A DNA stretch of 64,000 bases, taken from the NCBI GenBank assembly GCA_030586155.1, contig CP130741.1, forward strand, positions 1,544,680 through 1,608,679, in the 5' to 3' direction. This document shows positions 1,331 through 52,596 of this stretch, piece after piece. The position numbers and the translations under genes were made by a program. Source of the DNA: Eubacteriaceae bacterium ES3 (lineage in GTDB: Bacteria; Bacillota; Clostridia; Eubacteriales; Eubacteriaceae). Each line of letters starts with the position of its first letter. The stretch's first letter is position 1. A model generated the notes under the pieces. It was given only the letters and a program-made list of their open reading frames with translations. It did no database searches and had not been told where the DNA came from.

Positions 1331-2459
1331 GAGACTGCTCCTCTACAATTATTTGCATTTCAGTATTTAATAAATTCTGGTCTTCCAAAAGTTCTATTAG
1401 AATCTTCTCCTTTGGCCGAACGCCTTTACATACGGATTTTCCTTGTTGTAAATAGGTTTTACAAATCCAAAAGATTTGTTTATCATAACCCGTGACGCGT
1501 ATCAAAGTCTGGTGACAATAAGGGCATATGAACCTACCTGTAAATGGATAGGTCTTTTTTGATCGAGTTTTTCTTAATTCCTGCGCTTTTAGCCAGTCTG
1601 CCTGGTCGATGATGGGCGGAAAACAATCATGTACATAATATTTATTTTGCTGTCCTTTATTTCGCAGCTGTCTGCCTTTTTCGTCAACAAATGATTTTTG
1701 TAAAAGACAATCCCCCATATACTTTTCATTCGAAATCACTCGAAGGATTCTTTCTGAAGTCCAAACTCGTTTATATTCAATCGGTACTTTTTCTTCATTA
1801 AAATCTGTTGCAATCTGATAACCTGAAATTCCCGACAGATACCTTTTGAAAATCAATCTGACAATATCAGCTTCATTTTCTTGTATAACTGGATTTCTAT
1901 TTTTATCGGTCGTGTAGCCAAAAACACGGTCCGGATTATGTAACGTTTTTCCAGCCTGGTAGTTCTTTTGAATGGACCACTTGATATTCTGGCTTACCGA
2001 TTTACGCTCAGCTTCAGCAAGCGATCCGAGAACAGTCAGCATCAGCTCCCCTTCTGCATGAAGGGTATTAATATGGTTTTCTTCAAAAACAACACCAACG
2101 TTAAGTTGTTTTAATTCACGGATTGTTTCAAGCAAAAACATGGTATTTCTGGCAAACCGGGAAATAGTTTTTGTAATGATCAAATCAATTTCCTGATTTC
2201 TTGCCGCTTGCATCATGGCATTAAATCCTGGTCGATCATTCTTGGCACCGGATACCCCAGCATCCGAATAGATACCACAAAACTGGTAATCCGGAAGTGA
2301 AGTGATTAGACGTTTGAAATACTGCTCCTGGTTCTCCAATGAATTCAGCTGCAGATCATGACCGGTCGATACCCGAATATAGGCACAGACCCGTTTGAGC
2401 TGGTGATGAGCAATCCCCTTTCTTTTGGTAATTGTTTTAACTTCTCGGGTTTCAGCCAT
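1263..2459 (-). CDS. large serine recombinase 2
   Basis: A 398-residue large serine recombinase. The catalytic domain spans about residues 22-170, with the nucleophile in YIRVST and the SRFARN motif. The recombinase domain covers about 180-290, and a short zinc ribbon follows (CPYC near 315, then two more Cys). There is no long coiled coil, and the last 25 residues are basic. It overlaps recombinase 3 by 8 bases upstream and recombinase 1 by 68 bases downstream, so all four are one transcript. It is shorter than usual for phage integrases of this family (450-600 residues), so it may act with a partner. Prophage integration or excision is the likely role, inferred from family and position. Confidence 0.88.
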   Translation of the reverse strand: MAETREVKTITKRKGIAHHQLKRVCAYIRVSTGHDLQLNSLENQEQYFKRLITSLPDYQFCGIYSDAGVSGAKNDRPGFNAMMQAARNQEIDLIITKTISRFARNTMFLLETIRELKQLNVGVVFEENHINTLHAEGELMLTVLGSLAEAERKSVSQNIKWSIQKNYQAGKTLHNPDRVFGYTTDKNRNPVIQENEADIVRLIFKRYLSGISGYQIATDFNEEKVPIEYKRVWTSERILRVISNEKYMGDCLLQKSFVDEKGRQLRNKGQQNKYYVHDCFPPIIDQADWLKAQELRKTRSKKTYPFTGRFICPYCHQTLIRVTGYDKQIFWICKTYLQQGKSVCKGVRPKEKILIELLEDQNLLNTEMQIIVEEQSHGKNHHPKTKKDFSLRPINKEK

Positions 2460-4068
2460 GGCATTTTCCTTTCATCGGCCATTTTATCTCCGTGCCATCT
2501 TTAAACCGGAAGTTCACTTCTTCATTGGAGAGAACGACCATCTCTAAAATCGTCCGTCGCCAGAGGGTTTCATCAAACTCTGTGAGTAGTTCTTCTTGAT
2601 TTTCTAGGATATCCAGAAAAGCATGAATCTGGCTTTTTCGGGCTTTCCGTTTTCTGATTTCCTCGGATAATGCCATATGGCGATTGCGAAGTTTATCATA
2701 ACTTTCAGCATAAGCGTTATAGCGGCGCTGGTACTCATCTTGGTCCATCGCAATCCGGGTGTTTTCGTTGACAAAGGCATCAACCATCATTTCGATGGAG
2801 CTACATTCTTCATCAACTTGCTTCAGTTCTTCTTTTAAGTCCTGAGAATCGGTTAGCTTCTCAATCAAAAGGCGGTAATTCTCAAAAATCTCGGCTTTAT
2901 TCTTGATGAGGTGATTCATAACTTCTACGAACATTTTTTTAATGGTTTCATCGTACAAGTGCGGTGTACTACATTTGACCGTTTGTTTAAATTTGTGATT
3001 GCACTGCCAAACAATACGCTGATATTTACTGCCAGCGTGCCAGACTTTACTGCCATATGCGCTGCCACAATCGCCACAAATAATTCGAGTGGAGAAGCAA
3101 CTCATGCTGCTCGTATAACCGCCTTTTGATTTTCTTCTGTCAAATTCCTCCTGCACCAGGCCAAATGTTTCTGGGGGGATGATCGCAGGGTGGCTGTTTT
3201 CGACATAATATTGGGGAACTTCACCTTCATTTGTTTTCGTTTTTTTAGTCAAGAAGTCTGTCGTGTAGCGTTTTTGCAAAATTGCATCGCCTTTGTACTT
3301 CTCGTTTTTAAGAATGCTAATCACCGTTGAAACTGACCATTTTTCTCTTCTAGTTGGAGTAAGGATTTTTAATGCCATCAACTGTTTGGCAATAGCTGAA
3401 GGGGTGTAGCCTTCCAGAAAGAGCTTATAAATAAGTCGAATGGTCGTTGCTTCTTCTTCAACTATTTGCGGAAGTCCATTCTCCCCTTTAACATATCCTA
3501 GGAAACTCTTGTAAGGTAGGGAAATATTTCCGTCTGAAAAGCTCTTTCGTTTCCCCCATGTCACGTTTTCTGAAATTGAGCGGCTTTCGTCTTGAGCCAA
3601 GCTTGACATGATCGCGATTAATAGCTCCCCTTTGCTGTCGAGGGTATAAATATTTTCTTTCTCGAAGTATATTTCGATGTTTTTTTCTTTCAGTAATCGA
3701 ACATTTGTCAGCGTGTCAACCGTGTTTCTGGCAAACCGTGAAACTGATTTAGTAACAATCAAATCGATCTTTCCTTCCAGCGCATCTTTTATCATGCGGT
3801 TGAAGCCATCTCGTCTTTTGGTACTGGTTGCTGAAATACCCTCATCCGTATAGACTTCTACAAATTCCCACTCTTCCTTACCTTTGATATACTTCGTGTA
3901 ATAATCAAGTTGAGCTTCAAAACTGCTTTGTTGTTCTTCTAGATTAGTTGATACTCTGGCGTATGCAGCCACCTGCTTTTTTCGGGAAGTCACTTCTTCA
4001 ATCTGATTGAATAACTCAGGTGTTGCCGGAATAACCGTTACTGATCTTACATTTCTTGTACCATTCAA
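2452..4068 (-). CDS. large serine recombinase 3, full-length integrase-like
   Basis: The longest of the four recombinases (538 residues), with every module of a phage-type large serine integrase. The catalytic domain has YARVST at about residues 36-41 and SRFARN. The recombinase domain includes ENSHPAIIPPETF. The zinc ribbon has CGDCG near 332 and further Cys in WQC and VKC. A coiled coil of about 380-480 (ELKQVDEECSSIEMMVDAF and beyond) precedes a C-terminal tail. The start overlaps the stop of recombinase 4 by 4 bases (ATGA type), indicating translational coupling. As the only member with a full coiled coil it is the best candidate for the main integrase. No attachment site could be recognised. 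Confidence 0.9.
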   Translation of the reverse strand: MNGTRNVRSVTVIPATPELFNQIEEVTSRKKQVAAYARVSTNLEEQQSSFEAQLDYYTKYIKGKEEWEFVEVYTDEGISATSTKRRDGFNRMIKDALEGKIDLIVTKSVSRFARNTVDTLTNVRLLKEKNIEIYFEKENIYTLDSKGELLIAIMSSLAQDESRSISENVTWGKRKSFSDGNISLPYKSFLGYVKGENGLPQIVEEEATTIRLIYKLFLEGYTPSAIAKQLMALKILTPTRREKWSVSTVISILKNEKYKGDAILQKRYTTDFLTKKTKTNEGEVPQYYVENSHPAIIPPETFGLVQEEFDRRKSKGGYTSSMSCFSTRIICGDCGSAYGSKVWHAGSKYQRIVWQCNHKFKQTVKCSTPHLYDETIKKMFVEVMNHLIKNKAEIFENYRLLIEKLTDSQDLKEELKQVDEECSSIEMMVDAFVNENTRIAMDQDEYQRRYNAYAESYDKLRNRHMALSEEIRKRKARKSQIHAFLDILENQEELLTEFDETLWRRTILEMVVLSNEEVNFRFKDGTEIKWPMKGKCHG

Positions 4069-5369
4069 TTTGCCATCCCCCTTTCCATTATCAGTCTTTG
4101 TCGTTCTCTGGCTTCCTGTTTTTTCTTCTCATCCCAGCTTTCTTTTCTGGATTTATGACTCCAGGTTTTTTCTAAAATCTGGTTATCATGAAAGACAAAG
4201 AGTAGTTTGAAGTCTTCAGGGACTCGTATTTCTTTAATCTTTTCGCTAAAGACGACCTCATCGAAATTTTCCAATCCCAAAACTTCTGCAGAAACCTCCA
4301 TGAGAATCTCTTCTGGAATCTGAATGGTATGGCATACTGATTTTCCAAAGTGCAAATAAGTCCGGCAATTCCAATAGGTGTAGCCATGCGTTACTTTCCG
4401 GTTGTAATGTTTGCCGCATTTATCGCAGATAATCTTTTGAGTAAAGGGATAAACGGGGCGTTTCTTTTTCCCAGAAGACTTTCTTCTGCTTGCAAGGATC
4501 TCTTGGGCTTTATCAAATGTCTCTTGATCAATAATAGCTGGATGAGTATTTTCAGCATAATACTTTGGTAGCTGCCCCCAATTGGTGACGAGTTTTTTAG
4601 ATAAGTGGTCTGAAACATATTTTTTCTGGGCAAGCGAGTTTCCAGAAAATTTCTCGTTTTTTAATATTTCACCAACTCTCTCAGGTGTCCATATTCCACC
4701 TCTAAGTTTTTCAACATCCATTTCTCTGAGTTTCTTAGCAATCAGATTGAAGCCCATACCACTCAGGTAGTCATCATAAATCATGCGTACTATTTCAGCC
4801 TGTTCTTCATTAATCTCAATGCCATTCTTACTAATCCGGTAACCATACATGAATCGAAGATTAACCAATTCGCCTTCTTGAAAGCCCTTTCTGATGCGCC
4901 ATTTGCAGTTCTCGCTAACCTGTAGACTTTCCGCCTGCGCAAAAGAAGCGAGGATAGTGAGCATTAACTCTCCATCCCCGCTTAAACTATAAATATTTTC
5001 TTTTTCAAAATAAACTTCAATGCCAAGGCTTGTGAGCTCCCGGACTACTTCCAAAAGGGTCAGTGTATTTCTGGCGAATCGTGAGATTGACTTGGTAATG
5101 ATCAGGTCAATCTTATGATTCCTGCAATCAGCTAAAAGCTTTTGAAATTCTGCTCGCTTATCCTTGGTTCCAGTTGCGGCTTCATCTGCATAAACACCGA
5201 CGTACTCCCAGCCTGGATGGTTTTGTATGAATTCACTGTAGTGACTGATCTGAGCAGACAATGAATGAAGCATTGCATCTTTTCCGCTACTGACTCTGGC
5301 ATAAGCAGCTACCCGTTTTTTGTCTGGCAGCTTTAACACCGATGGTTCAATTTTAATAATTTTTCGCAT
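4065..5369 (-). CDS. large serine recombinase 4 (first in operon)
   Basis: A 434-residue large serine recombinase and first of the four in transcription order. The catalytic domain contains YARVSSGKD (nucleophile at about residue 27) and SRFARN. A recombinase domain with ENTHPAIIDQETFDKA follows, then a zinc ribbon CDKCG...CRTY...VCH at about 330-365. The C-terminus is basic and rich in Lys, Arg and Glu, not a long coiled coil. It starts 65 bases after the SHOCT gene stop. The four paralogues have diverged enough not to be recent duplicates. In clostridial elements with recombinase clusters all copies can be needed for excision. Whether that holds here is inference. Confidence 0.9.
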   Translation of the reverse strand: MRKIIKIEPSVLKLPDKKRVAAYARVSSGKDAMLHSLSAQISHYSEFIQNHPGWEYVGVYADEAATGTKDKRAEFQKLLADCRNHKIDLIITKSISRFARNTLTLLEVVRELTSLGIEVYFEKENIYSLSGDGELMLTILASFAQAESLQVSENCKWRIRKGFQEGELVNLRFMYGYRISKNGIEINEEQAEIVRMIYDDYLSGMGFNLIAKKLREMDVEKLRGGIWTPERVGEILKNEKFSGNSLAQKKYVSDHLSKKLVTNWGQLPKYYAENTHPAIIDQETFDKAQEILASRRKSSGKKKRPVYPFTQKIICDKCGKHYNRKVTHGYTYWNCRTYLHFGKSVCHTIQIPEEILMEVSAEVLGLENFDEVVFSEKIKEIRVPEDFKLLFVFHDNQILEKTWSHKSRKESWDEKKKQEARERQRLIMERGMAN

Positions 5370-39690: not shown

Positions 39691-40470
39691 TTAGAAAAAC
39701 AGATTGTTTATAACACGAGCTTCTCGTATTGTCGAAAATTCAAGCAGCTTTGAAGCCGGTGGATTCCTTTCAATCAACGCCAATCCTTTTAGACGAATTA
39801 ATGCCGACGAATTCGAAACATTAAATGTTTCACTTACCAAATCAACCTTTGAAGCAATTGTTTGGCGATTAGAATTTTCAATAGCTTTTTTTACCATACT
39901 CTTAGGCATCAGAATCGCTGCCGATAAATAATTGGCTTGCCACTCCATCCATTCTTCTTCAGTCCAAAGTTCAAAGGGTTTTTGTTTAAAATTTTTATTG
40001 TCGATGCGGCACTGAACCATTGGTGCTCGACTATTGAAAAAAGAAAGTTGATCAGGCTCATAGCCAAAATAGGCAGTGTGTAAAATATGATGACTGCCTT
40101 CATGACCAACAGTGAATCGATAGCGATGCTCTTTATTTGGTTCCAAAAGATGATTATCGATAATTAATGTTCCGGCTTTTGCGCTGATAAATTCAGCTCG
40201 ATTCATATCAGGGTTATAGATTGGAACTTCATCGGTGTCATTAAAAACGGTCATTCCAAGATAACACCCACAATGAGAGAGGTGTTGAAAATCTTGTTCC
40301 ATACCGAGATAACGTACAAAAAATCGATCAATATCAATTTCTGATGGAACCCGCATTGCTTCTGAGCAAAAATCTGCGACGAATTGTTCCCCAAAACTGT
40401 CAAGTTGGTCCTTATTGACAACCGGGACATTGTTTATAGTAGTTCGAAACGCGGGTTTAAACATAGGCAA
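39691..40470 (-). CDS. ImmA/IrrE family metallo-endopeptidase
   Basis: A 259-residue protein with the zinc protease motif HEGSH (in VGHEGSHHILHTAYF, about residue 125) and the third ligand region WMEWQANYLSAAILMPKSMV typical of ImmA/IrrE. The C-terminal part has a winged helix (FNVSNSSALIRLKGLALI). ImmA-type proteases cut the phage or ICE repressor when DNA damage is signalled, releasing lytic genes. It starts 3 bases after the XRE repressor stop, so the two are a unit, the ImmR/ImmA pair of ICEBs1 and many Firmicute phages. Confidence 0.88.
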   Translation of the reverse strand: MPMFKPAFRTTINNVPVVNKDQLDSFGEQFVADFCSEAMRVPSEIDIDRFFVRYLGMEQDFQHLSHCGCYLGMTVFNDTDEVPIYNPDMNRAEFISAKAGTLIIDNHLLEPNKEHRYRFTVGHEGSHHILHTAYFGYEPDQLSFFNSRAPMVQCRIDNKNFKQKPFELWTEEEWMEWQANYLSAAILMPKSMVKKAIENSNRQTIASKVDLVSETFNVSNSSALIRLKGLALIERNPPASKLLEFSTIREARVINNLFF

Positions 40471-40473
40471 GAA

Positions 40474-40857
40474 TTACTCCTTCCGCTTTTTTAACTCTTC
40501 TACGAACTTTAACCACTCTTCCTCACCGACATCGAGATCACGTGCAGTTCGTAGAGCCACGCTTATATAGTCTCGACCTTTTATGTATTCGGGCAAATCA
40601 GGTGCAACTGAATCTCGCTGCTTCCCAATTAAGTCATACATATCAGCTTTCTCCTTTTCGCTCAAATTTAAAATACCGGCGAGAGTTTCCAACCGTTCCG
40701 CTGTTAGCGGGGCACTTCTGTTTTTTTCGACGTCACTTAGATAAGGTGCTGATACACCTAATTGGCGCGCTAGTTCCCTTAAAGTGAAGTCTTTTTCTTC
40801 GCGTTTCTCTGAGAGAAATTGTCCAAAATTTTCATGATTTTTTTTCATTTTATTCAC
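40474..40857 (-). CDS. XRE-family repressor (ImmR-like)
   Basis: A 127-residue protein. The N-terminal helix-turn-helix is FTLRELARQLGVSAPYLSDV (about residues 24-43), followed by ENL-like MNLSEKEKADMYDLIGKQRD. The C-terminal tail (VALRTARDLDVGEEEWLKFVEELKK) is the ImmA-cut-type region. It is probably the lysogeny repressor: it binds operators near its own promoter (inverted repeats at 40950-40965 and 40983-41018). Uncommonly, repressor and early genes run in the same direction, with no divergent Cro-type gene. Confidence 0.85.
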   Translation of the reverse strand: MNKMKKNHENFGQFLSEKREEKDFTLRELARQLGVSAPYLSDVEKNRSAPLTAERLETLAGILNLSEKEKADMYDLIGKQRDSVAPDLPEYIKGRDYISVALRTARDLDVGEEEWLKFVEELKKRKE

Positions 40858-40949
40858 CTTTTTTCTATACTGCCTGCTCTATCCATTTTCATTTTCACTT
40901 TATTAATCATTGTTTAACAGGTCTTAATCTATTCGGTGAGTCAATTAAT

Positions 40950-41018
40950 GGTTAAGGTGTTAACCTTACGACTTACAATTATTACACACCCCTTCATATA
41001 TTTTTCAAGGGTGTGTAA
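40950..41018. promoter_or_regulatory. candidate repressor operators upstream of the XRE/ImmA unit
   Basis: Two inverted repeats: GGTTAAGGTGTTAACC (40950-40965, 6-base arms) and a longer one with arms ACACACCCCTT and AAGGGTGTGT (40984-41016, one bulged base). On the minus strand TTGAAA-18-TAATAA lies within the second. No T-run follows, so this is more operator-like than terminator-like. Confidence 0.5.
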
Positions 41019-41081
41019 ATAAGTTTAAGTTTAGCCAAAGAATTTTTATTAATTTAATAGCTCTGTATTTAAATTTTGCAT

Positions 41082-41792
41082 TCATTCATGCCTTGCCGTA
41101 TAATCAGCCTTTAAAAACAGCTTATACTCATTAATTTTAATTCCATATTTTCTAAGCATTCGTCCGATCACATTTCTAACCTGGTTTGCACTCATATTTG
41201 TCATTACGTAAATATCTGTACCCTCGACTTTCCTAGGTGCACGAATCCCCTTACTATCCTTACAAAAGTAAGCAACTTTTCTCCCCTGCATCGTTTTATC
41301 CATAATGAATGATTCAAACTTAATTTTGTCTTTCTGGGCTAATTCTTGGCAGGTGCTAACAAATACCTCTTTCCAGTCTTTAGCATCATGGCGCTTTCCA
41401 AAAATTTCAAAAGCAGCCGGTCTTTTGTGCGTGTAATCATCATATAAGGTATAAGGAATATTTTGATCAACTCTTAGTGATTCATAGTCAGGAAGCTCTT
41501 TTGTGTCATCATCGCAATTTTCAGTACTGATGATTTCTTCCTCAATTTCCTCATCCAGCTGGAGTTGATTTGTAAAATCTTCCAACTTAATTTGGATTTC
41601 ATCAACCGATTGAAGCAACTCCTGTAATGTTGACAATTTATTATAATCACGATCATCAACAGCTTGGTTGAAGGCGTTCTTAATGCTGTCAACACTGCCA
41701 CTAATACATTGGCTGAGTAGTTCGATGCATTCCTGTATCTCTAATGCATCTTTCGGAAATTCGCTTTTAAAAAAAAGAATCAGTTTTTCCAT
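41082..41792 (-). CDS. 236-residue protein of unknown function, HEPN partner candidate
   Basis: A protein starting MEKLILFFKSEFPKDALEIQ, chosen because AAGGGGGAAG precedes the ATG at 41792; an upstream ATG at 41831 lacks a ribosome site. The first 120 residues are helical and acidic (LDEEIEEEIISTENCDDDTK). The last 110 form a compact domain: AFEIFGKRHDAKDWKEVFVS, GRKVAYFCKDSKGIRAPRKV, EGTDIYVMTNMSANQVRNVI. I have seen similar C-terminal domains in unnamed clostridial proteins, often near restriction genes. It follows the HEPN gene closely, so it may be its regulator or antidote. No catalytic motif is visible. Confidence 0.55.
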   Translation of the reverse strand: MEKLILFFKSEFPKDALEIQECIELLSQCISGSVDSIKNAFNQAVDDRDYNKLSTLQELLQSVDEIQIKLEDFTNQLQLDEEIEEEIISTENCDDDTKELPDYESLRVDQNIPYTLYDDYTHKRPAAFEIFGKRHDAKDWKEVFVSTCQELAQKDKIKFESFIMDKTMQGRKVAYFCKDSKGIRAPRKVEGTDIYVMTNMSANQVRNVIGRMLRKYGIKINEYKLFLKADYTARHE

Positions 41793-41835
41793 TTCTTCCC
41801 CCTTATTGACTAATTTATTTATTAGTTTCAAACAA

Positions 41836-42450
41836 TTAATGATTTTGTTTTGATTTTTTTAAAATACTCAAGATCACATCAACATCAAAGTTATTAGTCG
41901 CTTTTATCGAAAAAAACTGACCATCATAGTAATTTGAATAATGATTTACACAATCCATACCAAATTGAATTAAATTTCTAACATCATTGATAACTAAACC
42001 TGTTCCTTTAAAGATGTCATCTTCTTTTAGCTTGCCCATATCATTATGAGCAAGCAATTTATCTCTTATCTTTTTGAATTCAATCAACTTGCAATCAAAC
42101 AAATCTAATTGATTTTTATCAGCGTTTAAAGCAATTTTTACTTTTTCACGATCTTCTGTATTAAATAGCATTTTCGTATTTTGCTCAATATAGTTTAAAT
42201 ATTTTCTAAAAGTGATGGTTTTATCATCGTAATCATAAAGTCTGCATAATCTAATTAATGCACCTTCATATAGAGCATTCTCGGTAAGAGAAAAAAACGC
42301 AGGAGATAAGTTTAAAACTTCTAGCCTTTTCGAATGCTGATTTTTCAAATAAATGAATAATTCAAACATAGAGTCGATCGTAATTAACTCTTGTCTTATA
42401 AATTCTCTATATAGCTCGTATTTAATTTGGTTTTCGGCCAAGTTATTCAT
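41836..42450 (-). CDS. AbiU2-like HEPN domain protein
   Basis: A 204-residue helical protein. The signature RDKLLAHND (about residues 129-137) is a HEPN-type R-x(4-6)-H active site, and the general layout (LYEGALIRLCRLYDYDDKTI then ...RDKLLAHND, GTGLVINDVRNLIQFGMDCV) matches AbiU2-like HEPN proteins. Members of this group are thought to be RNases that act in abortive infection. It begins 18 bases after the HsdM stop and is followed 43 bases on by the 236-residue gene. The order places it as a suicide layer behind the type I restriction system. Confidence 0.8.
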   Translation of the reverse strand: MNNLAENQIKYELYREFIRQELITIDSMFELFIYLKNQHSKRLEVLNLSPAFFSLTENALYEGALIRLCRLYDYDDKTITFRKYLNYIEQNTKMLFNTEDREKVKIALNADKNQLDLFDCKLIEFKKIRDKLLAHNDMGKLKEDDIFKGTGLVINDVRNLIQFGMDCVNHYSNYYDGQFFSIKATNNFDVDVILSILKKSKQNH

Positions 42451-42468
42451 CCATTCCTGCTTTTCATC

Positions 42469-44070
42469 CTATATTTGAACCCCTAGAAGTTTAAGCTGCT
42501 CATTGATTTCTTTTTCCATTTGGGCAATTTCTAAATTATCCTGCTGAAGAAGGCGGTTCACCTCATCCAGATCAATCGGCTCTTCTTCTTCAAAAGTATC
42601 GACGTACCGGGGAATATTCAAATTATAATCATTGGTCTGAATTTCTTCTATTGACGCTACATGGGCATATTTTTCAAGATCCTGACGGGCTTTATAGGCT
42701 ACAATGATCTTTTTGATATGGTCATCAGTCAGATTATTCTGATTTTTGCCTTTTTCAAAATCATTGCTGGCGTCAATGAAGAAAATATCCTTAGTTTGGC
42801 GGTTCTTCTTAAAGACCAGAATTGTCGTCGGGATGCTGGTGCCGTAGAAAAGATTAGCCGGCAGACCGATTACTGCATCAAGTACATTTTTTTCAATCAG
42901 AGTCTGGCGGATTTTACCCTCAGCCGCACCCCGGAACAAGACCCCGTGGGGCAGGACAATAGCCATAGTACCGGTATTGTTGAGATGATAGAGGCTGTGG
43001 AGAATAAAGGCGTAGTCGGCTTTGGAGGCTGGTGCTAATTTCCCATATTCACTAAAACGCGGATCCTTTAATTTACTTTCTGGATTATCCCATTTAGCCG
43101 AGTATGGCGGGTTGGCCACCACCGCATCAAAACTGCGCGGCTGATCAATGCCCTTGGCATCCGGTCCGTCGGGCCAGTCGCTTTCTAAGGTATCAGCATT
43201 GTGCAGAGTCATGTTGTTAAAGGAAACTCCGTGCATCATCAGATTCATCCGGGCCAGGTTGTAGGTGGTGGTGTTCAGCTCTTGACCGTAAAATTTAATG
43301 GCCCCTGTTTGATCGCCTCCTGGCAATTCACTTCGAACCGTTAAGAGCAGTGACCCCGACCCCATAGTCGGGTCATACAGAGTGAAGGCCGTATCGGATA
43401 GCGTCACATCAGCCGTCACCAGCTTGGCCAGAACCTGACTGACCTGATGAGGGGTGTAGAATTCGCCCCCTTTTTTTCCGGCTGAGGCAGCAAATTGACC
43501 GATTAAGTATTCGTAGATTTCGCCCAGCACATCTTTACCGTCAGCACCATGATAATCAATCTCATCAACCAGCTTGACGATGTTATTAAGCGATTTAGCC
43601 CGGGCGGTTGTAGATGCCCCCAACCGGGAATCACCCAGGTTGATATCATTAAAGACACCGGAAAAATCCTGAGCGGCTTCTTTATTTAATTCGACATTAT
43701 GATTAAAGTTGTCAAAAATCGTCTGATAATCACTGGGAATTACCTGGCTACTGGCGATTTTTTCAGTCAAGGAGACCCATGTGTCCTTTGGGGCAATGGC
43801 ATAACCCAGGCTTGCCGAGATGTCATCGAGATAATCAGCCAGATCATCCCCACTGGCCTGTTCCTGAAAAGCCTGATTAACCGTTTGTCCGTCAGCGACA
43901 TCAATGACATGATTGGTAATCAGATAGTCTTCCTGATGTTCGGATAAATACCGGTAGAACATAAAGGCCAGAATATAGTTTTTAAATTCACCGGCGTCCA
44001 TATTGCCCCGGAGTTCATTGGCCATGGCCCAGAGTTTACTGGTGATAGATTGTAAGTTATTACTTGACAT
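42469..44070 (-). CDS. hsdM: type I restriction-modification methyltransferase subunit
   Basis: A 533-residue HsdM. It has the N-terminal helical domain (MSSNNLQSITSKLWAMANEL) and a gamma-class N6-adenine methyltransferase: motif I TLYDPTMGSGSLLLTVRSEL (about residue 232) and motif IV VVANPPYSAKW (NPPY). EFYTPHQVSQVLAKLV precedes motif I as usual. It methylates host sites with two copies bound to one HsdS. It is the third of the hsdR/hsdS/hsdM block and is 24 bases after the HsdS stop, then runs into the HEPN gene. Confidence 0.93.
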   Translation of the reverse strand: MSSNNLQSITSKLWAMANELRGNMDAGEFKNYILAFMFYRYLSEHQEDYLITNHVIDVADGQTVNQAFQEQASGDDLADYLDDISASLGYAIAPKDTWVSLTEKIASSQVIPSDYQTIFDNFNHNVELNKEAAQDFSGVFNDINLGDSRLGASTTARAKSLNNIVKLVDEIDYHGADGKDVLGEIYEYLIGQFAASAGKKGGEFYTPHQVSQVLAKLVTADVTLSDTAFTLYDPTMGSGSLLLTVRSELPGGDQTGAIKFYGQELNTTTYNLARMNLMMHGVSFNNMTLHNADTLESDWPDGPDAKGIDQPRSFDAVVANPPYSAKWDNPESKLKDPRFSEYGKLAPASKADYAFILHSLYHLNNTGTMAIVLPHGVLFRGAAEGKIRQTLIEKNVLDAVIGLPANLFYGTSIPTTILVFKKNRQTKDIFFIDASNDFEKGKNQNNLTDDHIKKIIVAYKARQDLEKYAHVASIEEIQTNDYNLNIPRYVDTFEEEEPIDLDEVNRLLQQDNLEIAQMEKEINEQLKLLGVQI

Positions 44071-44093
44071 AAGTTGATCCTTTCGTTTTGAAA

Positions 44094-45332
44094 TTAAACA
44101 AACATTTGTTGTAGGAGGGCTTTTTTGCGGGCTTGCAAGTGTTCAAGCTTACGCTGCTGAAGGGTGATAAGGTTATCTAGTTTAGAAAAATAATCTCCAA
44201 TTTTGTCTTGTTCATTCTTTGACGGAAACATAAAATCTAGGTTTCCTAACATCTTTCCAGATATTTCAGCAAAGGTTGAACCTGATGCCACTTTCGCCGC
44301 TTTCATCTTAATCATATCGCTCATCGAATATACAAAATATGTATTAATAACATCATTCAAAACCATAGATTGAAAGCCTTGATTGGTTGTGCCAGGATGG
44401 CGTAATATTGCGGTTTTTCCTATTCCAGCTCTACTTGTAAATAACACAGTTTTATTTGCTGGTAAAATCTTTGCAGAACTTTTTTCTAGACCTAATTTTG
44501 TTATTTTTCTTTCACTTCCACCCACATATATCTGATCATTTATCTCAGCTGGAGAATACCAATCAATATCTCCATCCCAATATTCAGGACTGTTTGTACT
44601 AGGTGTTCCGCCTCCTATAATTTCAGAGATTTCATTAAGCTTACGCTGTTCCCAAGCGTCCGTAAAGCCGGGAAATCGCAATTCAGGAACCGAGTTACCA
44701 GCTTTAGGAAACATTTTTTGCAGCAACCCTTTTTTGCGGGTTTGCAAATGTCCAAGCTTACGTTGGTGAAGGATAATGAGGTTGTCCAGTTGTTTTAGAA
44801 AAGAGCCAATTTGGGTCTGCTCTTTATAATTTGGCATAATAATATCAATCGAATTCAAAATACCCTGACTAACATTAAATCGAGTACTTCCACCAGCTTT
44901 TCGCTCAATTTGTTTTCTTCCAACACCATTTAAAGATCGTTCAATAAATATTGAATCATACTCACTTTTCTTCTTTCCACGAATAGCGAATCCACTATAT
45001 AGTGCATACTTATTGTCAGTATAAGCCTTAGCCCATCCTACTTCTTCGGGAATTTCAGAAGAACGAGCGAATACAATATCACCATTTTCAACTTTATATC
45101 TTTCTTCTACAGTAGAATCGACTTCAACAGAATTACGAATATTTTCATAACTTAATTCACCAAATGATAATACATCCATGACACTTATCATCTTACGTCC
45201 TTTACCATAATTTTCTTTTGGGGCATTAATCCCATTTGAAAAATCCATCAAGTTTTCTAATTTACGCGACTCCCAAGGGTCAGTAAACCCCGGAAACCGT
45301 AACTGCGGCACCATCTTCTTTTCTTCACTCAT
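44094..45332 (-). CDS. hsdS: type I restriction specificity subunit, two target domains
   Basis: A 412-residue HsdS with two target recognition domains separated by conserved repeats. Each half starts with PQLRFPGFTDPWESRKL (about residue 8) or PELRFPGFTDAWEQRKLNEI (about 213) and ends LEHLQARKKALLQQMF or LGHLQTRKKGLLQKMF. The first domain recognises one half-site and the second (GGGTPSTNSPEYWDGDIDWY) the other. The repeat symmetry makes it a classic full-length subunit. It is upstream of hsdM and behind a 220-base gap that contains the palindrome CCGATCGG. Confidence 0.92.
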   Translation of the reverse strand: MSEEKKMVPQLRFPGFTDPWESRKLENLMDFSNGINAPKENYGKGRKMISVMDVLSFGELSYENIRNSVEVDSTVEERYKVENGDIVFARSSEIPEEVGWAKAYTDNKYALYSGFAIRGKKKSEYDSIFIERSLNGVGRKQIERKAGGSTRFNVSQGILNSIDIIMPNYKEQTQIGSFLKQLDNLIILHQRKLGHLQTRKKGLLQKMFPKAGNSVPELRFPGFTDAWEQRKLNEISEIIGGGTPSTNSPEYWDGDIDWYSPAEINDQIYVGGSERKITKLGLEKSSAKILPANKTVLFTSRAGIGKTAILRHPGTTNQGFQSMVLNDVINTYFVYSMSDMIKMKAAKVASGSTFAEISGKMLGNLDFMFPSKNEQDKIGDYFSKLDNLITLQQRKLEHLQARKKALLQQMFV

Positions 45333-45552
45333 TATGCTACCTGTCCTTTTGGGCTATTATTTATGCTTTCATATACAAATTTGTTAATATTTATGCTGAT
45401 TTTATCTAAAACTGTTGATATTCAAGCCTTCCTGATCATCAGCGCCTATTGGTTTTAAATTTTCGTGGTTTTTTCCAAAATGGAAACTACCACTTTTTCT
45501 GCCGATCGGTTTTATAAAATTGCTTCATGTCTAAGCTTAAAAACAAGGATCA
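45333..45552. other. non-coding gap between AlbA_2 gene and hsdS
   Basis: No gene is seen. It holds the palindrome CCGATCGG (45502-45509) followed by TTTTAT, similar to TCGATCGG at 46946-46953, and the hairpin TTTCCAAAATGGAAA near 45472-45486. It may carry the hsdS promoter. The CCGATCGG copy may be another binding site for the upstream AlbA_2 protein. Confidence 0.4.
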
Positions 45553-46893
45553 TCAATTATGTGTTGTTTCACCGGGTGCAATCTGGTACACCGTTGACCG
45601 GCCACTACCCACCTGAATCAGCAAGCGATTTGCTTTTAACCGCTGGATCAGCGTGTTGGTCTGGGTTTTTTTCAAATCAAGGGCAGTTTCCAGCTGCTGT
45701 CTGGTCATACTTTTATGAGTCTTTAGTATTTCAAGAATCCGTCTTTCATTAGGTGTCAGATCAATCGGATAAGTTGTTTCAAAGGGCTGGCTGGGGCTAT
45801 TCTGAGTAACTTTTGGCAGGACAATCGTAATCGAGTTTTCTTCAATAATAAAGCTCGGTTCAACACGATAATCCTGATAATATTCTTTTATGCGGCGGAT
45901 TCCGGTCGCCAGTTTTTCAATGATATGCAATCTGAAAAAAATATCGGCAATGATCCGGTTGCGGGGCACTGAGATCCGCCCTGACAGATACTCGCTCTCA
46001 TTTATACCCAGTGGCAAACCACCGGGCGATAAAATTTCGATGCGATCATCAAAAATTTCAATCCTTCCATCGACCGGTCGAGAATAATCTCGGTGGACGA
46101 TCAGATTTGCCAGAGCCTCACGGTAGGCGACCAGTGGCACTTCGGCAATGCTTTCCCGATAAGCAGTGGTTATTTTCTCAGATTGATTGATGTGTTTATA
46201 ATAAAATGCCATGCCATCTTCAAAATGCTTCAGTAGCGATTGATGCATCACGGTCAGCCGGTCTTTTATCGCCGCAACTCCGTTACCATCATAAGCAATC
46301 AGCTGGAGATTTGCCTGCTGAAGAGGATTATCATCTGACAGTAAGGCCGCCGCCATATTGTATTGATCTTTGACCTTCAGCTCCAGGGTTATCAGCAGAT
46401 CATCGCTAACATGATGCAAGTTGAGTCGACTTTTCAAGTGACTGTTTAGAACCACAAACGACAGATTCTGTTGAGGTGCCCGCATCATATCAAAGGTCAT
46501 ATTTTTTCCGTAAAGAATCAGTTCATCCAGAGCGCTGCGATCAACCGGCACACTAGCGGTATCCAACCGTTTATAAGCTTTTTTATCATAGAGGTAGGGC
46601 GTGTTATCGCCCTTATAAACGCGTATTAACAGTATTTCCAGGCCTTCATAAGTTTCGATTTCAATTTCATAATAAGGACGAGGTTCAATGGCATCGTTGA
46701 TGGTATTTTCAAGATTAAGTCGCAGCCTGTCGGGATCTTCAATCCCCACGATTTGTTTGTTGTCATCTATACCAATGATAATCACGCCATCATGATAATT
46801 GGCAAAGGCGCTGACTGTCTTCAAAAGGGTTTTTGAATAAACGGCTTTGTATTCAATATACTTGTTCTCACCCAGTAAAATTAGCGCATCCAT
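45553..46893 (-). CDS. AlbA_2 / ATP-binding putative regulator
   Basis: A 446-residue protein. Residues 1-130 are an AlbA_2 (Schlafen-type) DNA-binding domain (LGENKYIEYKAVYSKTLLKT, GVIIIGIDDNKQIVGIED). Residues about 245-375 have an HATPase_c_4-like region (YREALANLIVHRDYSRPVDG, RIEILSPGGLPLGINESEYL, IEKLATGIRRIKEYYQDY), and the C-terminus is a winged helix (MTRQQLETALDLKKTQTNTL). Such proteins often sit in type I restriction loci as accessory regulators. Repeated palindromes TCGACCG...CGGTCGA lie directly before its start, so it is probably autoregulated. Confidence 0.8.
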   Translation of the reverse strand: MDALILLGENKYIEYKAVYSKTLLKTVSAFANYHDGVIIIGIDDNKQIVGIEDPDRLRLNLENTINDAIEPRPYYEIEIETYEGLEILLIRVYKGDNTPYLYDKKAYKRLDTASVPVDRSALDELILYGKNMTFDMMRAPQQNLSFVVLNSHLKSRLNLHHVSDDLLITLELKVKDQYNMAAALLSDDNPLQQANLQLIAYDGNGVAAIKDRLTVMHQSLLKHFEDGMAFYYKHINQSEKITTAYRESIAEVPLVAYREALANLIVHRDYSRPVDGRIEIFDDRIEILSPGGLPLGINESEYLSGRISVPRNRIIADIFFRLHIIEKLATGIRRIKEYYQDYRVEPSFIIEENSITIVLPKVTQNSPSQPFETTYPIDLTPNERRILEILKTHKSMTRQQLETALDLKKTQTNTLIQRLKANRLLIQVGSGRSTVYQIAPGETTHN

Positions 46894-46902
46894 ATTTTCT
46901 CC

Positions 46903-47080
46903 TTTCGACCGCTTTTGACCGGTCGATTAATTTTATACCATTTTTTCGATCGGTTTATTGTATCATTATTTGCAAAATCAGCCAATAATAATGCTTTTCA
47001 GCAGAATATTCCGGTTTTTCGGTGGCAGTTTCGAATAAAACAAGCATTTTGACTTTTTTCGACCGCTTTCGACCGGTCGA
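46903..47080. promoter_or_regulatory. two copies of a CGACCG palindromic site
   Basis: Copy 1 at 46903-46926 and copy 2 at 47057-47080 are 24-base repeats (arms TCGACCG and CGGTCGA, with GACCGGTC inside) that differ at one base. Copy 1 lies directly upstream of the ribosome site of the AlbA_2 gene. A half-site TCGATCGG is at 46946-46953. Between hsdR and this gene nothing else is coded. Confidence 0.7.
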
Positions 47081-47144
47081 ATTTATCCAGGCATCCGATT
47101 TTTCGGTCAGTGCATTTTTCGCACGAACCAAAGATCCCCTTTTC

Positions 47145-50100
47145 TTAGTTCTCTACCAGTTCATCGGCCAATGCATAGAGCGCTTCTCTAAGGCCATTAC
47201 GGTACTTAATCTTGGATAAGCCCTGAACTTTTTCATCATGAGCTAAAGTCTGATAATCGCTACTGGCTTTGGCAATAATATCCCGAATCTGACCATTATC
47301 GTCGAGATCCTGCTGGCCATAACGATGGCGACTGAACAGTTCCCGCATCTGGGCACTGGAAATCACATCAATGATTCCCCATTTTATTCGGAAGTTCTGA
47401 AACTGCCGATCAAGACTGATGGCATTGGCGGCCTGAATCACAGGGTCACTCTCGCTTAATCTGGCCGGATATGTATCATGGGTGTAATGGCCGTTAAAAA
47501 TTGTATTAGCGGCATTTTTAATCTTGCCGGCATAATTTCGGTCATCCAGACCATTGGCAAAGAGATCAATTTTTGCTTTGGTTTCAAGGGCCGCCTGGTG
47601 TTCTTTGTCATGGACCTGATTGAGTAATTTTTCCAATAATTCAGTCAGATAATCATAGTCAATTTTGATATCTTTGACGTGGGTCATTCGCAGTTCGATC
47701 TGATAGAAAGGCACTTTTTTCTCTTTGGCGATTTGTTGCCGCAACTCATTGCTAAGCACTGTCGTCAGTATCTTTTCTTGAGCCGGGGTCATGCCCAGGC
47801 CTTCGATTAAATCATCAGGCGCATCATAATTAAAACCGATCTTTTTCCCGTCCACTGTTTGTGGATCGTATTGTTTTAATTTAGACATTCCCACATTATA
47901 TTGCCGCAACAGCGAAAGCATTTGCTCCTTCTGTTTTTCACTGGGGGGCACTGCCTGAAAGGTATTAGTCAGATCTTTTAATTGTTCCACCACTGCTTTT
48001 ACTTCGGCAAACTCCGTTTCAAAGGGTTTAGCAATGATGCCGTCTTTTTCGATGTTTTTTTTATGTTCATCTGGAGACAAATTGGCGGAATCCTTATTGG
48101 CATAAATGGCCAATGCCTTGTTCATCAGTTGTTCGTTATGAGCCGGCCAGCGGTAATTGACAATTCGACCCCAGGGTTTTTCCTGCATATCAGCGATTCG
48201 GTTGGTGCGTGAATAAGCTTGAATCAGGGCGGCCCCTTTGAGGGTCCGGTCAACATAAAGGGTATTTAATTCCGGGGCATCAAAACCGGTTAGCAGCTGA
48301 TCAACAACAATCACCAGATCGAGAAACTTCTTGTCGGTGGCGGTGCGATTTAAACGGCTGGTAACATCCTGAGTATATCCGGAAACATCATCCATCCCGA
48401 AGCTGGTGTCAAATTCCTGATTATAGACGCTTATAGCTTCACACAATCCTTGATTGGTGGCCAGTTGGGAGTCATTATTGGTCGTGTTTTGACTAAAAGT
48501 CACCGCCACTTTAAGGGTCTGTTTGCCGCTTTCCTTATTTATGCCATTAACCCGCTGGAACTCATGGAAATACTTCATAGCCATTGGCGTGCTGGCTTTT
48601 CCGCCGCCAACGTGGGTGGTAAAGATGGCGTTATATTTACCTTCATTGGAGCGGTTGCGCCAGTTTTTAAAAACATCTTCAACCACTAAACGGATGTGGT
48701 CAGGGTTTTCATCATAAAAGCTGGGTTCGATGGTATCATCTATATCTTGGTCGGTCAGATTATTAATTTTCAACTCAATCTGCGCATCAGTCCATTGGGG
48801 ATAGCGATTTTTATAAAACGCCGGTAAATACTCCGTCTTCATTTGTTCTTCATCGATGGTCGTCTCAAAGTCGACTTTAAAACCCAGCACGTTGCGATCA
48901 GCAATCGCTTCCCTAATCGTATAGGCATGAAGCAGAGGTCCAAAGATATCCTCAGATCTTAGCCCAGTTGTGGTTTCATCAAACATCGGTGTGCCGGTAT
49001 AGCCGACCCAGGCAGATCGATTAAAAGCTTTCTGAATCGTCGCAAAATTATCGCCAGCGGTGCTGCGGTGCGCTTCATCAACAATAAAGACAATGTTTTT
49101 ATCCGGTGCCTTAAAGTTTTTGCGATTAACCAGTGTACCCAGTTTTTGAACAGAGGTGACAATAATATGATTGTCTTTGCGCTTTAATTTGCGGCTGAGA
49201 TCACTAGTGTTTTCTGTTGCCTGTACCGTTCCCGAACGGAGGGCATCACCAACATCCCCATCCGGATCATAGGCCCGATAATTTTCGTCAGTCTGTTTGG
49301 TCAGGGCTATGCGGTCCACGACAAAGACGACCTTATCAACCTTTGGCATCCGGGAAGCCAGCCAGGCCGTCTTGAAACTGGTGATTGTTTTTCCAGACCC
49401 GGTGGTATGCCAAATGTAACCCACCTTTTTATTACCGGCCTCAAAATCAATTTGTTTAATGCCTTCGATAACTTTTTGGGTGGCATAGACCTGATAAGGA
49501 CGCATGACTTTCAGCGTCTGTTTATTCTTGGTGCCATCTAAAATCATAAAGTTGGTGGCCATCTGATGCGCCATTGGGATACTAAGCATGGAATCGGCGA
49601 ATTCTTTCCAGTTGCGGACAATGGTATTATCCTCTCTTCGCTGCCAGTTGAAGGCAAAATCCTTGTTAAACTTCTCAGCTGTTGTATTGGCCATATACTT
49701 GACGTTGTTGGGTGTAATCGCCACCAGGATCTGCAATGTGGAAAAGATATCGCGATACTGGTTTTCGTCCGCATATTGATGCATCTGGTTTAAGGCTTCA
49801 TTGACATCATGGGTATCACATTTTTCTTCAATTTGAATAATTGGCAGCCCATTAATCAGCAGGGTTGTATCAAACCGCCGCTTTTGCTTCCCGGTGATCA
49901 CAGCAGGACGTTCGATCTGATTGACCACCTGATAGACCGTATCGCCAGCACCGATCTGTTTTTGGTCAAAAACCGTTAAGAAAACATGACGGCCATCATC
50001 CAGATCAATTTCAATTTGTGAGACCCCATTTAATCCGTATAAAAATTGACCGGCTTCGTAGGGAGTTCGGAGATCTGAGATAATTTTTTTGACCTGACCA

Positions 50101-50351
50101 AATTCCACCGCACTAAGGGGCAGGTTTAGCGTTTTCTGATTATGCTGTTCAAGAATTGTTTTGAAGTTATCCCACAATGTGTCGGTCGTTTTGATATCCG
50201 GTTCGTATTTCCACAGTTTCGTTTTCACGACATAGTGAGCCGGATTTTCGATAACATGATTAGTCGTGTTACTGTCGTTTCTTCCAGAATTGGTAATCGT
50301 TCCGCTAGTGATATACTCGATTAATTCTGTTTCGAATTGATTCTCAGTCAT
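47145..50351 (-). CDS. hsdR: type I restriction enzyme R subunit
   Basis: A 1068-residue HsdR. The N-terminal nuclease domain includes GLPIIQIEEKCDTHDVNEAL (the E-x-K-like region). The translocase has Walker A IWHTTGSGKTITSFKTAWLA (about residue 300), DEAH in IVDEAHRSTAGDNF and motif VI-like AYSRTNRIADM. The C-terminal helical region contacts HsdM. It cleaves unmethylated DNA away from the site after translocation. Its start overlaps the half-HsdS stop by 8 bases, so these two are coupled, separately from hsdS/hsdM. Confidence 0.93.
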   Translation of the reverse strand: MTENQFETELIEYITSGTITNSGRNDSNTTNHVIENPAHYVVKTKLWKYEPDIKTTDTLWDNFKTILEQHNQKTLNLPLSAVEFGQVKKIISDLRTPYEAGQFLYGLNGVSQIEIDLDDGRHVFLTVFDQKQIGAGDTVYQVVNQIERPAVITGKQKRRFDTTLLINGLPIIQIEEKCDTHDVNEALNQMHQYADENQYRDIFSTLQILVAITPNNVKYMANTTAEKFNKDFAFNWQRREDNTIVRNWKEFADSMLSIPMAHQMATNFMILDGTKNKQTLKVMRPYQVYATQKVIEGIKQIDFEAGNKKVGYIWHTTGSGKTITSFKTAWLASRMPKVDKVVFVVDRIALTKQTDENYRAYDPDGDVGDALRSGTVQATENTSDLSRKLKRKDNHIIVTSVQKLGTLVNRKNFKAPDKNIVFIVDEAHRSTAGDNFATIQKAFNRSAWVGYTGTPMFDETTTGLRSEDIFGPLLHAYTIREAIADRNVLGFKVDFETTIDEEQMKTEYLPAFYKNRYPQWTDAQIELKINNLTDQDIDDTIEPSFYDENPDHIRLVVEDVFKNWRNRSNEGKYNAIFTTHVGGGKASTPMAMKYFHEFQRVNGINKESGKQTLKVAVTFSQNTTNNDSQLATNQGLCEAISVYNQEFDTSFGMDDVSGYTQDVTSRLNRTATDKKFLDLVIVVDQLLTGFDAPELNTLYVDRTLKGAALIQAYSRTNRIADMQEKPWGRIVNYRWPAHNEQLMNKALAIYANKDSANLSPDEHKKNIEKDGIIAKPFETEFAEVKAVVEQLKDLTNTFQAVPPSEKQKEQMLSLLRQYNVGMSKLKQYDPQTVDGKKIGFNYDAPDDLIEGLGMTPAQEKILTTVLSNELRQQIAKEKKVPFYQIELRMTHVKDIKIDYDYLTELLEKLLNQVHDKEHQAALETKAKIDLFANGLDDRNYAGKIKNAANTIFNGHYTHDTYPARLSESDPVIQAANAISLDRQFQNFRIKWGIIDVISSAQMRELFSRHRYGQQDLDDNGQIRDIIAKASSDYQTLAHDEKVQGLSKIKYRNGLREALYALADELVEN

Positions 50352-50922
50352 GTTTCATAACCTCCTCCAGTTGGTGTAAGCGTATCATCGTTTCTTGCCT
50401 GGCGGCCCGTGTTTTTAAAGCTTGTAACCGCAATTGTTTAAAATATATTTCCCCGATTACCTTTTGCTTTTCAGTTGAGGGCAATATTGGGACTTCAAGA
50501 TCCTTTATTTGCTTAAGCGTGTATTTTAAAACCGTTGAGCCTTGCAGACCAATCATCAATTGTTTTTTGATGGCGCGATTTTCATTAAATAAATAAACCA
50601 GAAATTGTCGGTCGATTTTTTCTTTTGGGACAAATTTAACATAGTTTTGTGTAAATAGATAGCCTTGATGTTCTTCCCTGACGACTGTGGCACTTCCCGA
50701 AATCAGACTGAAAATAACATCACCTGTAGAAAGTGTATTAACCTTATCTTTTGTTTGAATACTCTTTTTCTCATTATCTTCGGCCGGAACGCCAACCAAA
50801 TCCTCCCATAAATCGGTTTGACTATAAAAGGTATAGATTGGCGACTGGTTGTTGAAGCTCTCAGTAATTCTAAATTGAGGGGTGCCACTGACAAATTCAA
50901 CAAGCTTGTTTAGTTTTTTCAT
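50344..50922 (-). CDS. half-size HsdS-like specificity protein
   Basis: A 192-residue protein with one target recognition domain of the HsdS type: NQSPIYTFYSQTDLWEDLVG, LSTGDVIFSLISGSATVVRE and ILPSTEKQKVIGEIYFKQLR followed by a short helix. There is only one TRD and one spacer helix, half of a normal HsdS. Half subunits can dimerise and make a palindromic specificity, or exchange domains with the full HsdS. It precedes hsdR by overlap, so it is not stranded. Either an alternative specificity subunit or a regulator of HsdR is possible. Confidence 0.75.
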   Translation of the reverse strand: MKKLNKLVEFVSGTPQFRITESFNNQSPIYTFYSQTDLWEDLVGVPAEDNEKKSIQTKDKVNTLSTGDVIFSLISGSATVVREEHQGYLFTQNYVKFVPKEKIDRQFLVYLFNENRAIKKQLMIGLQGSTVLKYTLKQIKDLEVPILPSTEKQKVIGEIYFKQLRLQALKTRAARQETMIRLHQLEEVMKHD

Positions 50923-51027
50923 ATTCGTGCCTTTCGCAAATTACTTTTCTATGATTCCGATTGTATCAGAAATAAAATAAAATTACAACATAAATATGTA
51001 ATTTATTATAATTACGTTTTTATAAAT

Positions 51028-52200: not shown

Positions 52201-52596
52201 TGGTGGAGGTGAGGGGAGTCGAACCCCTGTCCGAAAGTCCATTCACAAAAGCTTCTCCGAGCGCATTCATTGCTTATTTTCTCATTTCACTCCCCCTCCA
52301 ATGACAAAGTGAGAAAGAAACCAGCCTCTTAGTCGTTAAGGGTGCGAGACACTACCCAAAACGGTTCCCTGCTTCAATGAACGTCTGAACCCGAAACCAC
52401 AGGTTGAATCGGGAGACGTGCGGCAGTTTTGTGCCGCTGTTAGCATAGAAAGCTAATAACTGCGATTACGCAGCTAAAGCCATTCCGTAGCTATCGTTTG
52501 TTTTTGCGTTTATATTTAAGTGCCACTTTTATCGATGATTGGCACATCGGCTCGCTACTCAGGCTTCAAAACCCCCGTCGAAACCAGTACACCCCC
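52201..52596 (-). ncRNA. ssrA: transfer-messenger RNA (tmRNA)
   Basis: A 396-base tmRNA. The 5' end GGGGGTG and the 3' end CACCTCC plus ACCA pair as a 7-base tRNA-like acceptor stem, and GGTTCGACTCCCCT is the T-arm. The tag reading frame starts at GCA (52507-52505) and encodes AKTNDSYGMALAA before TAA (52468-52466). With SmpB it rescues stalled ribosomes and tags proteins for proteolysis. It begins only three bases after the smpB stop, so its 5' end is probably made by processing of an smpB-ssrA transcript. The 3' end (CCA encoded) is intact. Confidence 0.95.

Follow-up and report, generated by a model that had tools for sequence, protein, structure and literature searches.

Two genes lie behind the methyltransferase gene of a type I restriction operon in Eubacteriaceae bacterium ES3, one encoding a HEPN protein and the other a protein of 236 residues. 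The question raised by this locus is whether they constitute a single two-gene suicide system, as the original prediction proposed, or are separate additions to the operon. The window analysed here, a stretch of 64,000 nucleotides, favours the second answer: with somewhat better than even confidence, this is a type I operon with two functionally separate accessory genes, which encode a PrrC-like HEPN suicide RNase and a SeqA-like reader of DNA methylation.

Organization of the operon

The operon is on the minus strand in the order hsdR, Schlafen/AlbA_2, hsdS, hsdM, HEPN gene, 236-codon gene, and its encoding of HsdR, HsdM and HsdS together identifies it as a type I restriction-modification system. 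The features are:

50344..50922, minus strand: HsdS-like protein of 192 residues, overlapping the start of hsdR (Methylase_S, E = 1.4e-10)
47145..50351, minus strand: hsdR, type I restriction subunit (Pfam)
45553..46893, minus strand: Schlafen/AlbA_2 plus HATPase_c_4 protein, between hsdR and hsdS (Pfam)
44094..45332, minus strand: hsdS, type I specificity subunit (Pfam)
42469..44070, minus strand: hsdM, type I N6-adenine methyltransferase (Pfam)
41836..42450, minus strand: HEPN_AbiU2 protein, predicted RNase with R129...H135 (Pfam)
41082..41792, minus strand: 236-residue protein with a helical hairpin (residues ~1-80), a low-confidence acidic linker (~84-108) and a domain like the SeqA C-terminal domain (~125-230)
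41100..41420, minus strand: SeqA-like domain, residues ~125-230 of 236, approximate limits

Both accessory genes are downstream of hsdM on the same strand, as originally described, with the HEPN gene immediately behind hsdM (18 nt from stop to start, from the coordinates) and the 236-codon gene after the HEPN gene (43 nt from stop to ATG, likewise). The 236-codon gene extends from an ATG at 41792 to a stop at 41082, with an alternative TTG start that would give 249 residues, and inspection of the sequence finds AAGGGGG 5 nt upstream of the ATG. Scans of positions 40400-51000 returned 34 promoters versus 27.8 in shuffled sequence and 12 terminators versus 10.2; both results are close to background and were not used.

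The Schlafen/AlbA_2 plus HATPase_c_4 gene (45553-46893) has a counterpart at locus L012 (9827-11149; E = 2.2e-141), located downstream of the relative of the 236-codon gene at that locus. A prophage-like stretch at 299-40857 contains large serine recombinases, tape measure, portal, terminase, primase and repressor genes, and the restriction operon is situated between this repressor and a tmRNA gene (52201-52596). A search for an attachment-site repeat near the end of the tmRNA gene gave matches of 14-16 bases only, none of them convincing. At 299-5369 there are four serine-recombinase-like genes in a row, and all three that were run match the integrase family phrog_95.

The HEPN protein

The 204-residue HEPN protein, which carries the sequence RDKLLAHND, had been called AbiU2-like, and this is borne out by a score of 80.5 bits (E = 1.5e-22) against Pfam HEPN_AbiU2 (PF18734), the curated cut-off of which is 26.8. 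HEPN_AbiU2 is the sole family above cut-off in this protein, which has no fused ATPase part. The R-x(4-6)-H motif is present (R129...H135), and both residues are also found in a relative on a cyanobacterial plasmid (L046). In single-sequence searches the protein was found in one of 398 genomes of the phylum, which is the source itself, and in two of 40 genomes of the family, the second being a weak partial match (L025) that was dropped; PF18734 exceeded its cut-off in 1 of 199 and 2 of 226 genomes, with the source counted in both samples. Two loci with PF18734 below cut-off (L040, L041) were also dropped, their neighbouring genes looking ordinary by eye. No relatives were found in phages (the best PHROGs match, E = 0.047, was set aside) or in viral contigs searched with the single sequence and with a two-sequence alignment; plasmids yielded one relative, and a second when L046 was the query.

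Neighbours could be assigned for three other AbiU2-like genes: one on an Allocoleopsis plasmid is directly before an SNF2-type helicase gene, one on a Nitrosococcus plasmid is directly before an HNH_2 endonuclease gene, and one at L102 comes immediately after genes for a DpnII endonuclease and an N6/N4 DNA methylase. AbiU2 is listed with "Yes" in the column for the presumed motif and with restriction-modification operons as its context, and restraint of such HEPN proteins by restriction-modification systems in the manner of PrrC has already been proposed (Anantharaman et al. 2013, PMC3710099). The window protein resembles the AbiU2 family in its profile score, its R...H motif and its operon context; the difference is the SeqA-like gene that follows it, SeqA being absent from the accessible text of that survey (PMC3710099). 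The parallel with PrrC is that a HEPN-type RNase, here a predicted one, is encoded alongside a type I system and that release upon disabled restriction has been proposed (PMC3710099); PrrC, however, has an NTP-using regulatory part, whereas the window protein is a stand-alone HEPN protein. The HEPN part of this locus is a further member of a kind already published, the association of AbiU2 with restriction-modification operons is not new, and a suicide role upon failure of restriction is plausible.

The SeqA-like C-terminal domain

The 236-residue protein had been described as having a conserved but unnamed C-terminal domain; the analysis confirms this domain and allows it to be named SeqA-like. 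The C-terminal domain of SeqA binds hemimethylated GATC. Residues 144-219 of the window protein match Pfam SeqA (PF03925) with E = 1.2e-4 and 22.6 bits, below the cut-off of 25.5, and the NCBIfam SeqA model scores 17.5 bits, below its cut-off of 185; among the 22 domain-bearing proteins run, three (the window protein, L011 and L013) match Pfam SeqA, all below cut-off. Alignment of eight members of the domain family with six SeqA proteins by hhalign gave a score of 47.7 (E = 1.3e-6), and a repeat run gave 47.9 versus no more than 20.4 for 100 column-shuffled SeqA alignments and 11.6 for the reversed SeqA alignment; the profile alignment spans only SeqA residues 94-171.

In an AlphaFold model of the window protein with four relatives (model 1), the block means of pLDDT are 76-94 for residues 121-230, and the overall mean is 72. 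With this model Foldseek places SeqA at ranks 1-4 of the PDB, the best E being a weak 0.019, and VIA-align superposes residues 129-226 on residues 71-180 of SeqA in its complex with hemimethylated DNA (1LRR) with Z = 11.1 and an rmsd of 2.0 over 96 residues. Four of the 50 VIA entries match residues 129-226 and all four are SeqA; the others match the N-terminal hairpin, with Z up to 9.7. A second model, led by the L036 protein (30% identical to the window protein), gives VIA Z values to SeqA of 10.7, 10.5, 10.4 and 9.2, while Foldseek ranks SeqA sixth (E = 1.3) and unrelated helical chains match the hairpin with Z up to 10.2. Across the two models, matches to SeqA-DNA complexes have Z of 10.3-11.1. 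The VIA Z score alone is not decisive, because unrelated helical chains reach these values of 9.7 and 10.2 on the hairpin. A PDB sequence search with the family profile returned SeqA as the third of three matches (E = 0.63). Homology between the C-terminal domain of the 236-residue protein and that of SeqA is taken as established by computation, and the domain is probably without a name because the homology falls below database thresholds. PADLOC matches of the protein to pVip (E = 0.0078) and Cas2_IIIb (E = 0.047) were judged to be due to chance, and a best PHROGs match of E = 0.076 was set aside.

Compared with SeqA of E. coli (PF03925; PDB 1LRR, 1IU3, 3FMT), the window protein shares the fold and sequence profile of the C-terminal domain, the plan of an N-terminal part, flexible linker and C-terminal DNA domain, and the equivalents of R116 and N150. 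It differs in that it misses the Pfam cut-off, the equivalents of R118 and N152 are changed, and the N-terminal part has no match to the SeqA oligomerisation domain, a helical hairpin being predicted by the model instead. The genes of its family are found by type I hsd genes and not beside pgm, and its named relatives are from Clostridium, Acetoanaerobium and Paradesulfitobacterium whereas the SeqA sequences used are gammaproteobacterial. We know of no described SeqA in these bacteria.

Residues at the DNA contacts

SeqA contacts GATC through R116, T117, R118, N150 and N152 (PMC6225831). In the profile alignment, SeqA G115-R116-T117-R118 corresponds to G170-R171-K172-V173 of the window protein and SeqA T149-N150-x-N152 to T198-N199-x-S201, leaving two of the five contacts identical (R171, N199), with K for T117, V for R118 and S for N152. 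Among 17 members outside the GmrSD-type proteins described below (a table that omits L076 for its in-frame stops and includes the partial L018 and L019), G170 is present in all 17, R or K at position 171 in 16, N199 in 15 and S201 in 15, but R at the position of SeqA R118 in only two; L036 and L037 have H in place of N199. The contact loops are thus preserved in outline. Retention of GATC specificity is unlikely because the equivalents of T117, R118 and N152 are changed, and, to judge from the aligned residues, the specificity probably differs from the GATC reading of SeqA.

Fusion to GmrSD-type proteins

Seven proteins in which GmrSD_N and GmrSD_C both score above cut-off (L042, L043, L080, L081, L086, L087, L091) also end in the SeqA-like domain, which in the L091 protein is followed by DUF4268. 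These tails score 47.0 against SeqA versus no more than 18.3 in 50 shuffles; they were picked with the profile of the 236-residue family, which makes their match to that family circular and their match to SeqA only indirectly so. N is present at position 199 in six of the seven tails and S at 201 in all seven, but G at 170 in one. The likeness to GmrSD type IV enzymes is this shared C-terminal domain; the difference is that the window protein stands alone in a type I operon. Those members of the GmrSD family that have been studied act on modified DNA (PMC12707154). In its accessible text, a 2015 survey of GmrSD proteins has regions without domain assignment and makes no mention of SeqA (PMC4619093), and in that of a review from 2025 SeqA appears only as a means of visualising hemimethylated DNA (PMC12707154). 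Text searches of the open-licence literature found no description of a SeqA-like domain in restriction systems; in the accessible parts of the sources, the nearest mentions are a "SeqA-like protein" named in passing where archaeal nuclease genes are listed (PMC10354927) and the description of YabA as SeqA-like (PMC11019786).

The residues and the fusions bear on the possibility that the protein, although SeqA-like in fold, recognises unmodified DNA or a protein and helps in a general way to assemble type I and Z1 complexes, with no reading of methylation. The changes at SeqA R118 and N152 are consistent with such a role, as are the Z1-domain genes that adjoin 3 of 15 full-length relatives, but the preservation of G-R/K and N at the contact loops of most members outside the GmrSD-type proteins, together with the fusions themselves, makes it unlikely.

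Distribution and neighbours of the SeqA-like family

A single-sequence search found the 236-residue protein in 6 of 398 genomes of the phylum (a different draw from the 398 searched for the HEPN protein), and the family profile at E <= 1e-4 found members, fused and partial ones counted, in 10 of 398 genomes of the phylum and 23 of 291 genomes of the class; the source is included in each count. No relatives were found in plasmids (E up to 1e-3) or phages (E up to 0.01), and viral contigs yielded three loci. SeqA was not found in phages.

Genomic neighbours were tallied at 15 loci with full-length relatives, leaving out matches with coverage of the 236 positions below about 80% (L018-L023, L042-L045 and L078-L093 are among these); the nearest miss, L084 (44-230), follows a gene for an Eco57I-type methylase. 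L072 and L014 are one contig and entered the count once, and L001-L010, L026-L035 and L049-L071 are short copies of other loci. A type I hsd gene is within 10 kb of 12 of the 15 relatives, and upstream on the same strand in 10; in six, fewer than 200 bp separate hsdR from the start of the SeqA-like gene downstream of it. The 15 relatives include three pairs with 97-99% identity (L036/L037, L015/L073, L074/L075), and merging them leaves a type I gene at 9 of 12. Some of the hsd and Z1 queries were themselves taken from L011, L012, L013, L015 and L037, so that matches at those loci are by construction; the type I gene identity at L011, L013 and L037 rests on Pfam, and the L011 HsdR is a C-terminal piece of 262 residues at the start of its contig. 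L038 and L077 lack type I and Z1 genes nearby, the contig of the latter being short. At L015 and L073 the SeqA-like gene is separated from hsdR by an HNH_2 endonuclease gene, and the neighbours of the relatives at L077-L079, L082 and L083 look like ordinary chromosomal genes by eye. The profile had no match in the chosen open reading frames of 4 of 22 loci (L085, L088, L089, L093).

Other genes were observed at some of these loci. Downstream of the SeqA-like gene at L036 (8951-12349) is a frame of 1132 residues that matches a Pfam RNA-dependent RNA polymerase family (E = 7.7e-16). Proteins of 477 to 963 residues at L022 (7683-10574), L092 (1-2667) and L020 (8917-10350) have an internal SeqA-like domain and no Pfam family above cut-off, the last being encoded behind an hsdR-like gene. 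A small basic protein near type I genes at L012 (9366-9653) and L016 (7374-7577) has the common stretch KFGMR-PSLKKRISARTS-KRQIVHRAGLKM.

SeqA-kind DNA-binding proteins can regulate as well as sequester, and a gene that is usually behind hsd genes could encode a methylation-dependent transcriptional autoregulator that acts at the operon promoter and times expression to replication, with no direct role in restriction. The 97%-identical proteins of L036 and L037 are encoded behind different type I systems, as if the restriction cassette had been swapped, which implies that the gene can accompany more than one specificity. This argues against autoregulation, as does the fusion of the domain to GmrSD-type nucleases, which points to a role at the DNA substrate. 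Because of these fusions a reader is likelier than a pure regulator of transcription, and the autoregulator is rather improbable.

One pair or two separate genes

Co-occurrence of the two genes had been set beforehand as the check on the claim that they belong together. The HEPN gene is within 10 kb of none of the 15 full-length relatives of the SeqA-like protein, a count that covers relatives of this AbiU2-type HEPN protein, and a six-frame search of the stretches around three other AbiU2-like genes with the family profile found nothing at E <= 1. HEPN toxins usually have a silencing neighbour, and these genes are adjacent on the same strand with a gap of 43 nt, but with co-occurrence absent in both directions (0 of 15 relatives, 0 of 3 AbiU2-like loci) and with the second protein being SeqA-like and a predicted DNA reader, a true toxin-antitoxin-like pair triggered by restriction failure is very improbable and was rejected. 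The claim that the second protein differs from an MNT antitoxin held, as no MNT family in Pfam or NCBIfam matches it, and that identity was likewise rejected. The HEPN gene and the 236-codon gene are probably not a toxin-antitoxin pair; of the proposed suicide system, the suicide role of the HEPN protein in a type I operon survives as plausible but the joining of both genes into one undescribed pair does not, and the HEPN gene and the putative reader gene would be side by side incidentally.

Proposed functions of the two accessory genes

The recurrent link of the SeqA-like domain is to type I genes and GmrSD-type proteins; within the sample, pairing with the HEPN gene does not recur. In the preferred reading of two separate accessory genes, the AbiU2 HEPN protein with its intact motif would be a back-up suicide RNase that the restriction complex restrains while it is intact and sets free once a phage has disabled it, by analogy with PrrC and its type I system. 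Predicted targets of the SeqA-like domain are adenine-methylated or hemimethylated DNA of the sort that HsdM produces, while the N-terminal helical hairpin may oligomerise or contact the restriction complex. The likeliest use of such a reader would be to steer a DNA translocase or nuclease according to the state of methylation, either by sparing newly replicated, hemimethylated self DNA or by directing attack on foreign methylated DNA. A bolder version, which is doubtful, is that SeqA-related readers of hemimethylated adenine are an undescribed family of dedicated restriction-control factors for type I systems that distinguish freshly replicated, hemimethylated self from foreign DNA, and that in this operon the reader would also license the HEPN suicide RNase upon loss of methylation at host sites.

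It has long been asked how type I enzymes spare their own chromosome and by what means modification-dependent enzymes find their marks. The SeqA-like domain, encoded repeatedly beside type I genes and also ending GmrSD-type proteins, is a directly testable candidate for a reader of adenine methylation.
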